DNA from: Rufibacter sp. LB8
GTDB taxonomy: Bacteria; Bacteroidota; Bacteroidia; Cytophagales; Hymenobacteraceae
Length of the DNA: 64,000 bases
Direction: 5' to 3'
NCBI RefSeq assembly: GCF_014876185.1
Contig: NZ_JADALJ010000001.1
Coordinates: 2,461,501-2,525,500 of the forward strand
This document shows, in pieces, positions 1,173-62,319 of this stretch; within the stretch, counting starts at the first letter, position 1; every line of letters starts with the position of its first letter. The notes under the pieces are model-generated. The model ran no database searches, was not told the DNA's origin, and saw only the letters and a program-made list of their open reading frames with translations. The translations under genes and the position numbers were made by a program.

Positions 1173-1212
1173 GCGTTTTCGGCTTCATTTCTGGAAATGA
1201 GGCCAAAAACGA
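1173..1212. repeat. Palindromic repeat, copy 1
   Basis: Member of the dispersed hairpin family; arms GCGTTTTCGGCTTCATTT and AAATGAGGCCAAAAACG around a CTGG loop. Imperfect: some G-U and mismatch positions. Confidence 0.85.
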
Positions 1213-1236
1213 AAGGAATTTTCCCTGCCGATTTCC

Positions 1237-1399
1237 CTGGCGCGAGTCTCCAGACTCGTCGGAAACCACAAGCTATTTTTGCGCAATGCTGCGTGATTAT
1301 AAGTCATGCGTAGTTTCGCTGCCTCCGCAGCGAGGGTTGTCTGGAGACTACCCGTCATCTGTAGACACGAGTGACCGCTGCGCTAAACACTCGCGCCAG
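1237..1399. repeat. MITE-like element with 11-bp terminal inverted repeats
   Basis: CTGGCGCGAGT at 1237-1247 is the exact reverse complement of ACTCGCGCCAG at 1389-1399. Inside are smaller hairpins (CGAGTCT/AGACTCG at the left end; a CGCTGC/GCAGCG hairpin near 1318-1333). No coding potential. Whether it is a mobile element or a structured RNA cannot be told from one copy. Confidence 0.55.
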
Positions 1400-1462
1400 C
1401 AAAATCAATTTCCCGTTCCATGCCAACACGTAGTTTAGTGAATTGACGCCACCTTTCTAGAA

Positions 1463-1505
1463 TGTGTTTTTGGCTTCGTTTTCAGAAATGAGCACCAAAA
1501 CAGAA
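1463..1505. repeat. Palindromic repeat, copy 2
   Basis: Degenerate copy (GTGTTTTTGGCTTCGTTT ... AAATGAGCACCAAAACAG). Left boundary of a small composite whose right boundary is copy 3. Confidence 0.75.
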
Positions 1506-1636
1506 AAGCCCAGTCCCTTCTCCCTCTGGGAGAAGGTTAGGATGAGGGAGATTTCACCATTGATCAGTAATTCCCGTGAATCAAAAAGCAACATTTTCAC
1601 CCTAGCCCTCTCCCAAAGGAAGAGAAAACTTCTACT

Positions 1637-1680
1637 TTCCTTTTCGGCTCCGTTTCCAGAAATGAGCCCGAAAACGGAAG
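1637..1680. repeat. Palindromic repeat, copy 3
   Basis: Arms TTCCTTTTCGGCTCCGTTT and AAATGAGCCCGAAAACGGAA, loop CCAG. Right boundary of the small composite. Confidence 0.85.
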
Positions 1681-58854: not shown

Positions 58855-58886
58855 TTTCCATGAACCGGCAAGAATGGCTAGCTTTG
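58855..58886 (+). promoter_or_regulatory. Predicted promoter of mfd
   Basis: TTTC (58855-58858, three of four), 20-base spacer, TAGCTTTG (58879-58886, full match). Predicted RNA start near 58893 supports TTG 58915 and excludes the ATG at 58860. Confidence 0.5.
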
Positions 58887-58914
58887 CCTTACTATTTCCT
58901 GAACAGATTTTCCT

Positions 58915-61900
58915 TTGAAAGCAACCCAATTTCTAGAGCTGTACCGGCAAGACCCCGTGGTGCAAACCGTGGCCCTCAAGCTGCAGTCCACGGCACCGAA
59001 CCATATACAATTGAAAGGCCTGGTGGGCAGTTTGGACGCCGTGGTGGCGTCGGCGTTGCAGACCATGCAGGCCGGCACGCACCTGTTCATTCTGCATGAC
59101 CGCGAAGAGGCCGCCTATTTTTACAGCGACCTCACCAGCCTGCTGGAAGACGGCCAGGAAGTGCTGCTGTTCCCCAGTTCCTACAAGCGCGCTTACCAGT
59201 TTGACAGCACAGAGAATGCAAATATTCTCCTTCGGGCTGAAGTCCTGAACCGACTCAACGACCGCGCGGGCGCCGGTGCGCTCATTGTCACCTACCCCGA
59301 AGCCCTCACCGAAAAAGTCATCAACAAAAAGTCACTGGTGGCCAACACCCTGGGTGCCAAAGTAGGCGAAAAGCTGGACGTGGCCTTCCTCACCGAAATG
59401 CTCAGCAGCTATGACTTTGAGAAGACAGACTTTGTGTATGAAGCCGGTCAGTTCGCCGTGCGCGGGGGCATTGTAGACGTGTATAGTTATGCCAACGACT
59501 TGCCGTTCCGGTTAGAATTGTTCGGCGATGAAATTGAGAGCATCAGAACCTTCGACCCCAACACGCAGCTGAGCGTGGAGCAGAAAAAGCAAATCAGCAT
59601 CATTCCCAACGTACAAACTAAACTGCTGCAGGAGACGCGGGAACCGTTTTTGGATTTTATTCCGCAGGACAGTAACATCTGGGTGAAAGATTACCGCCAG
59701 GCCGTGGAAGTTATCACGGAGTCTTACGAGAAAGCAGAACAGTCTTTTCAGGAGATGCTGGAAGGCAGCGCGGGCGTGCAGATTGTCTCCAAACCTGAGG
59801 ATTTGTTTGAAAGCGGCAAAGCCTTCAAGAAATCACTGGAGAAATTCACGTTGGTGGAATTTGGCAAGCGGTTCAATTTCAAGAATGCCGAGGTCATCCA
59901 GTTTCAGGCGCACCCGCAACCCTCCTTCAACAAAGATTTCAAGCGGCTGGTGACCAACCTGCATGAAAACCAGAGCAACGGCTACGTGAACGTGATTGCC
60001 GCTGAATCGCCGCGCCAGGCAGATAGATTAACCACCATCTTTGACGAACTGGACCAGGACGTCCGGTTCCACCATTTAATGCTGGCGCTGCGCGAAGGTT
60101 TCGTGGATGACCAGGTAAAACTGGTGTGCTACACAGACCACCAGGTATTTGAGCGCTTCTACAAACACAAAACCCGCGAAGGCCATTCCAAAGCCAAGTC
60201 GCTCACGCTCAAAGAGCTGAAAATGCTCAAGCCCGGCGACTACGTCACGCACATGGACTACGGCATTGGTCGATTTGCGGGGCTGGAGAAAGTGGAAGTG
60301 GGCGGTCGGTTGCAGGAAGCTATCAGGTTAGTTTATAGAGACGATGATTTGCTGTATGTGAGCATCCACTCGCTGCATAAAATCTCAAAATACACGGGCA
60401 AAGAAGGCACGCCGCCTACCATGAGCAAACTGGGCTCGCCGGAATGGGAAAACAAAAAGAAGAAAGTCAAGAGCAAGGTCAAAGACATTGCCGCTGAACT
60501 GATCAAGCTCTACGCCAAACGCAAAAAAGCGCCCGGTTACGCGTTCAGCAGAGACGGTTTCCTGCAGGCCGAGCTGGAATCTTCGTTCATCTATGAAGAC
60601 ACCCCAGACCAGGGCAAGGCCACCGAAGACGTGAAAAACGACATGGAACTCCCACACCCCATGGATAGATTGGTGTGCGGAGACGTGGGCTTCGGGAAGA
60701 CGGAGGTGGCCATACGCGCCGCCTTCAAAGCCGCCTGTGACGGCAAGCAAGTGGCGGTGTTGGTGCCCACCACCATCCTGGCCATGCAACACTACAAAAC
60801 ATTCAGAGATCGGCTGGAGGCGTTCCCCGTGCAGGTGGAATACATCAATCGGTTCAAAACCACAAAGCAAATAAAGGAAACCTTGGGCCGCGTAGCCGAA
60901 GGAAAAACCGATATCTTGATTGGCACGCACCGCCTGGCCAGCAAAGACGTCAAGTTCAAGAACCTGGGCCTGCTAATTATTGACGAAGAGCAGAAGTTTG
61001 GCGTGAAAACCAAGGAACGGCTCAAGGAAATAAAAGTAAACGTTGACACGCTCACGCTCACCGCCACGCCCATCCCGCGCACGCTGCACTTCTCGTTGAT
61101 GGGTGCCCGTGACCTGAGTGTGATTGCCACGCCGCCGCCCAACCGCCAGCCAGTACAGACCGAGCTGCACGTGTTTGATGATATCTTAATCAGAGACGCC
61201 GTTTCAGCGGAAATCAAGCGCAAAGGCCAGGTCTTCTTCGTGCACAACCGCATAGCGGATATTGAGGAGATGGGTAACCTGATTCTCAAACTGGTACCAG
61301 ATGCCAAAGTCACCTTCGCGCATGGCCAGATGGACCCCGAGGAGCTGGAGAAACGCATGATGCGCTTCGTGGAAGGTGAGTATGACGTGCTGGTTTCCAC
61401 CAACATCATTGAAAGCGGGCTGGACATTCCCAACGCCAACACCATCATCATCAACCGCGCGCACATGTTCGGGCTGAGTGATTTGCACCAGATGCGCGGC
61501 CGTGTGGGCCGGTCTAATAAGAAAGCGTATTGTTATTTATTGACGCCACCAGTTTCCGGTTTGCCGTCAGATGCCCGCAAGCGTTTGAGTACCTTAGAAG
61601 AATTCTCTGACCTGGGCGAAGGCTTCAAGATTGCCATGCGTGATTTAGATATTCGCGGAGCGGGAAACATGCTGGGCGGCGAACAGAGCGGATTCATCAA
61701 TGATCTTGGTTTTGAGGCGTATCACCAGATTCTGGACGAAGCCGTGCAGGAACTCAAGGAAACCGAGTTCAAAGAACTGTTCTTCAAAGAACTGGACGCC
61801 GAGAAATTGCTGGATCCCGTGCGCGAATGCAGCGTGGAGACAGACTTGGAGATTCTGATTCCGGACTACTACATCAGCAACATTTCTGAGCGCCTGCAGA

Positions 61901-62271
61901 TGTACAGCAAACTGGACAGCGTGAAAGACCTGGAAAGTTTGGAGAAATTGGTGACCGGCATGGTTGACCGCTTCGGGCCTATGCCGGAGCAGGTGGAGCA
62001 GCTGGTGAACATTGTGAAAATGCGCTGGGAGGCCTGCCAACTGGGTTTTGAGAAACTCACCATTAAGAAAGAAACCCTCAAAGGCTACATACCAAGCGTG
62101 AACAATGAGCCGTTCTTTCAGTCAGAAACTTTTAGCCGCATTCTGCAGTACGTTCAGCAGCATCCGCGCCGTTCCAGACTGAAGGAAGCCAAAGACAAGC
62201 TCATCGTGATTGTGGAGAATATCTCCTCCCTTGATGCTGCCAAGGCCATTTTTGAGGATTTGAAAGTATAA
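58915..62271 (+). CDS. mfd: Transcription-repair coupling factor Mfd
   Basis: 1118 residues. Releases RNA polymerase stalled at DNA damage and recruits UvrA. UvrB-like D1 near the start, a CarD-like polymerase-interaction domain at about 435-495 (LKPGDYVTHMDYGIGRFAGL), translocase with Walker A GDVGFGKTEVA at about 588-598, DEEQKFG at about 686-692, TATPIPRTLHFSLMGARDLS, GRVGRSNKKAYCYLL and GEGFKIAMRDLDIRGAGNMLGGEQSG, and a C-terminal TRCF domain. The start is a TTG, supported by the promoter above; full-length for the family. Palindrome 29 follows four bases after the stop. Confidence 0.96.
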   Translation: MKATQFLELYRQDPVVQTVALKLQSTAPNHIQLKGLVGSLDAVVASALQTMQAGTHLFILHDREEAAYFYSDLTSLLEDGQEVLLFPSSYKRAYQFDSTENANILLRAEVLNRLNDRAGAGALIVTYPEALTEKVINKKSLVANTLGAKVGEKLDVAFLTEMLSSYDFEKTDFVYEAGQFAVRGGIVDVYSYANDLPFRLELFGDEIESIRTFDPNTQLSVEQKKQISIIPNVQTKLLQETREPFLDFIPQDSNIWVKDYRQAVEVITESYEKAEQSFQEMLEGSAGVQIVSKPEDLFESGKAFKKSLEKFTLVEFGKRFNFKNAEVIQFQAHPQPSFNKDFKRLVTNLHENQSNGYVNVIAAESPRQADRLTTIFDELDQDVRFHHLMLALREGFVDDQVKLVCYTDHQVFERFYKHKTREGHSKAKSLTLKELKMLKPGDYVTHMDYGIGRFAGLEKVEVGGRLQEAIRLVYRDDDLLYVSIHSLHKISKYTGKEGTPPTMSKLGSPEWENKKKKVKSKVKDIAAELIKLYAKRKKAPGYAFSRDGFLQAELESSFIYEDTPDQGKATEDVKNDMELPHPMDRLVCGDVGFGKTEVAIRAAFKAACDGKQVAVLVPTTILAMQHYKTFRDRLEAFPVQVEYINRFKTTKQIKETLGRVAEGKTDILIGTHRLASKDVKFKNLGLLIIDEEQKFGVKTKERLKEIKVNVDTLTLTATPIPRTLHFSLMGARDLSVIATPPPNRQPVQTELHVFDDILIRDAVSAEIKRKGQVFFVHNRIADIEEMGNLILKLVPDAKVTFAHGQMDPEELEKRMMRFVEGEYDVLVSTNIIESGLDIPNANTIIINRAHMFGLSDLHQMRGRVGRSNKKAYCYLLTPPVSGLPSDARKRLSTLEEFSDLGEGFKIAMRDLDIRGAGNMLGGEQSGFINDLGFEAYHQILDEAVQELKETEFKELFFKELDAEKLLDPVRECSVETDLEILIPDYYISNISERLQMYSKLDSVKDLESLEKLVTGMVDRFGPMPEQVEQLVNIVKMRWEACQLGFEKLTIKKETLKGYIPSVNNEPFFQSETFSRILQYVQQHPRRSRLKEAKDKLIVIVENISSLDAAKAIFEDLKV

Positions 62272-62275
62272 TGTA

Positions 62276-62319
62276 TTTCTGTTTTCGGGCTCATTCCCGG
62301 AAATGAGCCCGAAAACAGC
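62276..62319. repeat. Palindromic repeat, copy 29
   Basis: TTTCTGTTTTCGGGCTCATT / GGAAATGAGCCCGAAAACAG with a CCC change near the loop; begins four bases after the mfd stop. Confidence 0.92.

Follow-up and report, generated by a model that had tools for sequence, protein, structure and literature searches.

A palindrome family on the Rufibacter chromosome

The window considered here, a 64-kb stretch of the 4.59-Mb chromosome of Rufibacter sp. LB8 (the home genome, G000), carries 30 copies of a long palindrome, which were located with a weight matrix and are listed with their neighbouring genes in Table 1. As set out below, docking sites for a putative DNA-binding protein seem a better match for these palindromes than jumping repeats or hairpins in RNA. 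Among named organisms, the closest relatives found for the host are R. immobilis (L001) and Rufibacter sp. XAAS-G3-1 (L002), to whose GHL10 proteins the home protein is 70% and 65% identical, respectively. A preliminary description of the window had proposed a repeated palindrome family, and its existence is borne out: a 10-mer from the palindrome arm occurs 22 times in the 64 kb where 0.2 occurrences are expected, a mismatch scan returned 31 sites at no more than 14 mismatches in 40 (one of them, at 42635, being a likely chance match), and the weight matrix found 211 copies (210 in the repeat run) in a 464-kb sample composed of the window and 20 evenly spaced 20-kb stretches of the same chromosome. 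The reversed control of this sample contained no match above 5 bits. The sample density, 45 copies per 100 kb, extrapolates to ~2,000 copies in the home genome. A 24-base pattern with three mismatches allowed was found at 933 forward and 902 reverse places genome-wide (control, 0), most of which are counted on both strands because the matches are palindromic.

The element consists of two 18-bp arms, with the frame NNGTTT[T/A/C]NGGNCTS[T/A]TTT, separated by 4 bp. The three flanking columns on each side of this 40-mer still pair above chance (z 4.1, 3.5 and 2.3), so the whole element measures ~46 bp. Its characterization as a near-perfect palindrome holds for part of the copies: over the 18 pairs, 16 of the 30 window copies have at most three mismatches, and 12 have at least five. 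The paired alternative spellings that had been cited are all present at their copies, with one imperfect pair at 32665. The reported switching of the loop between CTGG and CCAG proved to be mostly one asymmetric element in two orientations: of 210 copies, 79 are centred on CA and 71 on TG. In an Rfam search of the window the transfer-messenger RNA (tmRNA) alone reached the gathering score, and the palindromes matched no curated model. No excess of target-site duplications was found beside the copies, and their spacing along the chromosome, with a variance below the mean but p = 0.10, was not significantly even.

A covariance model matched all 16 genus genomes searched, with at least 150 matches in 12 of them and 120–149 in the other four; these counts cover the best 150 candidates per genus genome (the best 55 per family genome), may include the same palindrome once per strand and should not be read as copy numbers. 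Elsewhere in the family, under stricter filters that lose weak matches, 10 of 104 genomes had one to six matches and 94 had none, and 15 loci of other genera gave no match. Together with the ~2,000 copies extrapolated for the home genome, this supports a large family confined to a clade, as the preliminary description had looked for. Sampled loci of G001, G004, G005, G007, G008, G010 and G015 held sparse copies. No fitting repeat description for Rufibacter, Nibribacter, Hymenobacter or Hymenobacteraceae was found in the open-licence literature.

Table 1. Palindrome copies in the 64-kb window. All were located by weight matrix and no strand is assigned; mismatches are counted over 18 pairs.
Position	Feature	Setting	Score or mismatches
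1173..1212	palindrome copy	tandem gap; preceding gene, with its end at 1063, is AAA/ClpX-like (Pfam AAA_2)	58.9 bits, 3/18
1464..1503	palindrome copy	tandem gap shared with copy 1173	6/18
1638..1677	palindrome copy	tandem gap shared with copy 1173	6/18
5506..5545	palindrome copy	4 nt past stop codon at 5501, convergent gap	
5670..5709	degenerate copy	convergent gap shared with copy 5506	8/18
6383..6422	perfect copy, GGGGCTC/GAGCCCC	convergent gap shared with copy 5506	
8492..8531	palindrome copy	1 nt past stop codon at 8490, upstream of tmRNA	
9041..9080	palindrome copy, GGGGCTC/GAGCCCC	abuts T-run inverted repeat (9004-9039) that follows tmRNA	
11211..11250	perfect copy, AGGGCTC/GAGCCCT	60 nt past stop codon at 11150	
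14756..14795	palindrome copy	tandem gap	
14952..14991	palindrome copy	tandem gap shared with copy 14756	
19376..19415	palindrome copy	tandem gap	7/18
19733..19772	palindrome copy	tandem gap	
20643..20682	palindrome copy	2 nt from stop end (20685) of minus-strand gene	
21332..21371	palindrome copy	tandem gap	
23392..23431	palindrome copy	convergent gap	
24174..24213	palindrome copy	3 nt from stop end (24217) of minus-strand gene, convergent gap	
25141..25180	palindrome copy	divergent gap	
32665..32704	palindrome copy, AGGGCTC/GAGCTCT, one imperfect pair	convergent gap	
33360..33399	degenerate copy		10/18
33578..33617	degenerate copy		8/18
38095..38134	palindrome copy	tandem gap	
43335..43374	palindrome copy	divergent gap	
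43461..43500	degenerate copy	divergent gap	8/18
44250..44289	perfect copy, CTGTTTT/AAAACAG	9 nt past stop codon at 44240	
48675..48714	perfect copy, GGGGCTC/GAGCCCC and CTGTTTT/AAAACAG	2 nt past stop codon at 48672	
50243..50282	perfect copy, GGTCTC/GAGACC		
58552..58591	palindrome copy	tandem gap	
58719..58758	palindrome copy	tandem gap shared with copy 58552	
62279..62318	palindrome copy, CTGTTTT/AAAACAG	7 nt past stop codon at 62271	

Spacing, position and conservation of the copies

Arms were located independently of their spacing in five genomes (G000, G006, G003, G013 and G009, of which G003 is R. immobilis). The spacer between paired arms measured exactly 4 bp in 586 of 598 cases (195/195, 45/46, 84/87, 133/134 and 129/136 in the same order), and its sequence is 69% identical between G013/G009 orthologues. 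Two half-sites at a fixed spacing around a variable spacer are the pattern of a protein site on double-stranded DNA. Arms without a partner numbered 52, 27, 46, 32 and 46 in these genomes, against 32, 23, 22, 41 and 47 in the control. Read on the sense strand, 5,112 of the pairs in the 370 copies lying in tandem gaps of the five genomes are Watson-Crick; G·U and A·C account for 382 each, and 784 are of other kinds. A selected transcribed hairpin should favour G·U, and the equality of G·U and A·C leaves no signature of an RNA strand.

Summed over the five genome samples, and taking gaps of at least 45 bp, a copy is present in 123 of 146 convergent, 312 of 508 tandem and 55 of 152 divergent gaps. 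Copies in tandem gaps of G000 are nearer the upstream stop in 88 of 125 cases, and copy density peaks 0–10 nt past the stop codon (36 of the 181 G000 copies with a stop within 600 nt) and is low less than 40 nt before starts; 10 of the 211 G000 copies lie within called genes. The order of palindrome and intrinsic terminator is mixed, the palindrome coming first at 39 gene ends and the terminator at 53. A role as a substitute for intrinsic terminators was considered and rejected, as the two are not anti-correlated and show at most a weakly positive association, with p 0.05 in G003 and no significance in the other sets; by and large, each occurs independently of the other and in either order. 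Among 150 oriented copies no T tract directly follows the stem, the three flanking columns being mostly A and the next two leaning to T (49% and 38%).

The positions of the copies are conserved between species. Where 240 kb of G013 and G009 can be aligned, the two are 82% identical, and 92 of 95 mapped G013 copies (13 unmapped) have a G009 copy at the same place, compared with 5 of 95 in a shifted control; viewed from G009, 96 of 104 mapped copies (6 unmapped) are common to G013. Between G013 and the more distant G003, 46 of 53 mapped copies (9 unmapped) are common, against 10 and 12 of 53 in controls, under a mapping in which some intervals reach 1.8 kb; when the intervals are narrow, G013 has a counterpart for 34 of 41 mapped G003 copies, compared with 3 of 41 after shifting. 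The consensus differs between these two species, reading CGTTTTTGGCCTGTTTT in G013 and GCGTTTAGGGGCTGTTTTT in G003. Conservation between G013 and G009 is strongest in the feet (GTTTT/AAAAC, 96% identity) and in the inner block of T/A tracts (90%), compared with 75% in the flanks and 65% in random flanks. Between these two species 84 of 92 elements align without a gap, as do 48 of 184 flanks.

The centre differs within 12 orthologous pairs, being CA in one member and TG in its partner, and agrees within 30, and 10 one-step differences to TA or CG occur among the combinations listed (L144/L145 and neighbouring blocks). The CA/TG differences hint at in-place inversion between species; a test for inversion of the whole element is confounded by its near-symmetry. 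Near-identical G003 copies stand at sites occupied in G013 in five of eight cases and at sites where G013 is empty in three, a small number, and diverged copies in 29 and 4 of 33, respectively. These counts were used to examine the idea that a new master copy has overwritten old sites in R. immobilis, for which the copies are too few. On a second contig of the home assembly (155 kb; L231–L233), the home-dialect matrix located five copies in 80 kb and may have passed over others; judged by eye, the arms of these five resemble the dialects of other species, which would fit an origin of the contig in a relative.

Pairing between the arms

The arms of a home copy are on average no closer to each other than to the arms of other copies (3.31 versus 3.24 differences over 16 nt; n = 210). 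When copies are oriented by their centre, which was done for 150 copies with the 60 having other centres set aside, a small gain appears (3.50 versus 3.74 differences over 18 nt, sd 0.09). In the oriented set pair 8/33 covaries, with none of 500 shuffles as high, and 1/40 (p 0.002) and 2/39 (p 0.02) do so less; nominal p values of 0.006–0.034 were also obtained for pairs 7/34, 12/29, 14/27 and 15/26, the excess at 7/34 and 14/27 being due to one or two copies. Without orientation, pairs 1, 2, 7, 8 and 14 lie above the shuffles, and 12/29 and 15/26 pair less than shuffled. The strongest column dependence in the home genome lies within the arms, and 8–33 ranks eighth.

Pairing was also tested within each of eight genomes with 500 shuffles, and again after the removal of similar copies. 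G006 alone lies clearly above its shuffles over the whole stem; z is 2.0–2.1 in G002, G012 and G014 and ranges from −1.4 to 1.2 in G000, G003, G009 and G013. The G000 value is 1.2, and falls to −2.7 once similar copies are removed (pair 8 then having z 0.8); pair 8 persists under this removal in G013 (z 4.3) and G014 (z 3.5). A genus alignment of 93 copies, whose rows were pre-selected for at most five mismatched pairs and mix species dialects, shows covariation above every shuffle by four measures out of five (5 of 500 shuffles reach the remaining one) and above every slid version, with both-sided changes at 13 of 18 pairs. The covariation that the preliminary description had proposed to test is seen in the genus alignment and, among the eight genomes taken singly, clearly in one. 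Its claim that the arms change together stands for individual examples, for pair 8/33 and for the comparison between species given below, and is not supported as a general statement, the whole stem in the home genome reaching z 1.2. The further claim that paired changes reveal selection on a hairpin in RNA or single-stranded DNA was not upheld, given the lack of a G·U preference, the 4-bp spacer and a home stem that does not exceed its shuffles. Some maintenance or templating of the pairs does take place, yet pairing is not the main constraint.

Candidate protein sites and rival explanations

The near-fixed spacing, the conserved feet, the free spacer, the missing strand signature and the conserved position at gene ends together form the pattern expected of a double-stranded DNA site of a symmetric protein. 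With a confidence that stops a little short of even, we read the palindromes as genus-wide, two-fold symmetric sites of ~46 bp for such a protein, placed mostly at the ends of transcription units. An abundant symmetric protein, either a homodimer or something larger, would bind them there and might serve, to name three possibilities, as an insulator, a roadblock to transcription or an architectural factor; the species dialects would follow the drift of its sequence preference, and the paired changes would arise mostly as a by-product, each arm following the same consensus, with some arm-to-arm templating or copying in addition. A more far-reaching version, in which the genus marks most of its transcription-unit ends with ~2,000 sites of one putative symmetric protein that are re-spelled in place in each species along with the protein, appears rather doubtful. 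Operators and the sites of architectural proteins likewise have two half-sites at fixed spacing, most conserved in the feet and with a variable spacer sequence; the present family differs in its ~2,000 copies, its unusual length, its location at gene ends rather than promoters and the putative status of its protein.

A number of observations weigh against reading the palindromes as protein sites. The binding protein, its identity and any effect on transcription or chromosome structure are what we infer from these patterns, and a simple dimer site would be expected to be shorter than 46 bp. Unpaired arms exceed control matches overall (203 versus 165), with the excess in G000 and G003, and 36% of divergent gaps hold a copy too. 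Orthologous copies in G013 and G009 are slightly closer than unrelated ones (32.9 versus 29.3 of 40), and positions 11–12 and 14–15 and the spacer are 69–71% identical, no better than the flanks. The count of 84 gap-free elements is biased by the fixed-length matrix, which favours indel-free copies; the spacing of independently located arms is free of this bias. Near-identical copies are more frequent than expected from independent columns (50% versus 11% in G000, 28% versus 0.4% in G003), which means that copying has also occurred. Fully identical arms occur in 34 of 210 home copies, where 1000 shuffles give a mean of 14 and a maximum of 23; whole-stem pairing in G006 exceeds all 500 shuffles (z 4.4, or 1.9 without similar copies); pair 8 stands out in G000, G013, G014 and G006, and not in G003 or G009; and orthologous copies of two species show 34 pair-keeping double changes where 18.7 are expected and none of 500 shuffles gives more than 29, one-sided changes in the 91 of 92 pairs used numbering 360. 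Neither pair-specific coupling nor an excess of identical arms is predicted by a plain dimer site. Copying, pair coupling and the CA/TG centre differences show that other processes act too.

The palindromes might instead be selfish elements akin to repetitive extragenic palindromic (REP) sequences, spread by an HUH/Y1 transposase, copied as a hairpin, tolerated at gene ends and occasionally useful, an explanation that we regard as unlikely but far from negligible. In number (hundreds to thousands), small size and a location mainly in convergent and tandem gaps they match REPs and bacterial interspersed mosaic elements (BIMEs). A bias of REPs to gene ends is described in PMC3733652, which also mentions palindromic families without a tag in other bacteria and takes G-T pairing there as a sign of RNA function. 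The home genome has six Y1_Tnp matches, and three of five proteins tested (L082, L083 and L085) score above the cut-off for REP_Tyr_transpos; by eye, their motif pattern is that of subclass 2.6 as given in PMC6006769, where Bacteroidetes transposases of this subclass are flanked by 'atypical' structures that also lack the tag and have copies elsewhere in the genome. Y1 matches occur in 15 of 16 genus genomes (one to six each), near-identical copies are found in G000 and G003, and copies 100–200 bp apart are commoner than under a uniform spread (25 versus 8), though confinement to intergenic regions would also raise clustering. The resemblance to REPs that the preliminary description had noted extends to location and number. 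At 15 of 28 REP-transposase-type loci other recurring short palindromes, e.g., CTTCCGGATT..AATCCGGAAG and GGTAAGTTTATAAACTTACC (grouped by eye), lie within 220 bp of the gene, the other 13 having none of those, and none of the palindromes listed beside the 28 loci (at most two per side, at most one mismatch) belongs to the present family; the flanking palindromes are possibly the cognate hairpins of these genes. The oriented consensus and its flanks contain no GT[AG]G (or CGTC) tag, target-site duplications are likewise not in excess, a Y1_Tnp search at E 0.001 drew a blank in G013 (99% complete), where 120 kb hold 52 copies, G015 has one Y1_Tnp match and few copies, and the almost complete sharing of positions between two species (92 of 95) and the nearly constant 4-bp spacer are further differences. 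Across 32 Y1 loci of ~3.2 kb, 20 family-type palindromes were counted by eye, with no visible excess, as judged without a computed background. Membership in a system of REPs and REP-associated tyrosine transposases (RAYT) was accordingly rejected on the tag, the flanking palindromes and the co-occurrence with Y1 genes. The sites may also have arisen from REP-like elements and acquired a use afterwards.

A transcribed hairpin at messenger RNA 3' ends, serving as a terminator or as a stabiliser against 3'–5' exonucleases and working in both directions at convergent ends, would account for the gene-end location, the strong potential hairpin and the excess of pair-keeping double changes. We consider it improbable in view of the equal G·U and A·C counts on the sense strand, a spacer near-invariant in length while its sequence varies, and a density that is highest directly at the stop codon. 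Intrinsic terminators, including bidirectional ones, are also symmetric GC-containing inverted repeats at gene ends, but the palindromes have no T run directly past the stem, conserve their primary sequence and do not replace recognisable terminators, often standing beyond them. Another way to keep arms alike is mutational: template switching or hairpin repair (quasipalindrome correction) could copy one arm onto the other, as the pair-keeping double changes, the surplus of identical arms over shuffles, the differently spelled perfect copies within one genome (G006) and the 12 orthologous pairs with CA/TG centres suggest. Such copying may act in addition to other processes; as the whole explanation it is most unlikely, since it leaves the conserved feet and fixed spacing unexplained and the arms in G000 show no average likeness beyond the consensus. 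The DNA uptake sequences (DUS) of neisseriae are 10–12 bp long, mostly single and partly inside genes. A signal of this type, or of the type of the Haemophilus uptake signal sequence (USS), accumulated by biased transformation, would share with the palindromes the thousands of copies, the inverted pairs and the species dialects, which are features of DUS according to PMC3630211, and home-matrix copies are scarce on the second contig. At ~46 bp the palindromes far exceed the length of a DUS, they are nearly always paired at one spacing with lone arms only slightly above the control, and few lie inside genes (10 of 211), so that this explanation strikes us as the most remote.

Abundant intergenic palindromes are usually explained as RAYT-moved REPs or as RNA hairpins, and both fit poorly across this genus. 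The combination of conserved position and drifting consensus amounts to a natural experiment, in which one may seek a DNA-binding protein with recognition residues that vary alongside the dialect. Should such a protein exist, it would represent a chromosome-wide gene-end system in bacteria.

Several other repeats were seen in the course of this work. The palindromes flanking 15 of the 28 REP-transposase-type loci (among L082, L083 and L159–L183) are of three or four kinds, e.g., GGCGCGGAAGTTACTTCCGTGCC and GGTAAGTTTATAAACTTACC, and L169 (G004) has two near-perfect palindromes, TTGCCAGTTTGCAACTGGC/GCCAGTTGCAAACTGGCAA, near its Y1 match that are unrelated to the family described here. A second repeat family, GTAGAGAC[A/C]AGGC...GCCTTGTCTCTAC (window 33257–33438; sample L087–L106), carries GTAG and CTAC at its two ends, in the manner of the 'double foot' REP type. 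It has 32 matches at no more than one mismatch in the 464 kb (control, 0), and in several cases lies between two palindromes of the main family. The window also contains the tmRNA, at 8626–8999, with the tag peptide GESNYAMAA and one palindrome copy on each side. Two large proteins with extracellular-type domains are encoded at 33682–42108, the first having GH81, PKD and immunoglobulin-like domains and the second seven Big_7 stretches and matches to carbohydrate-binding modules (CBM).

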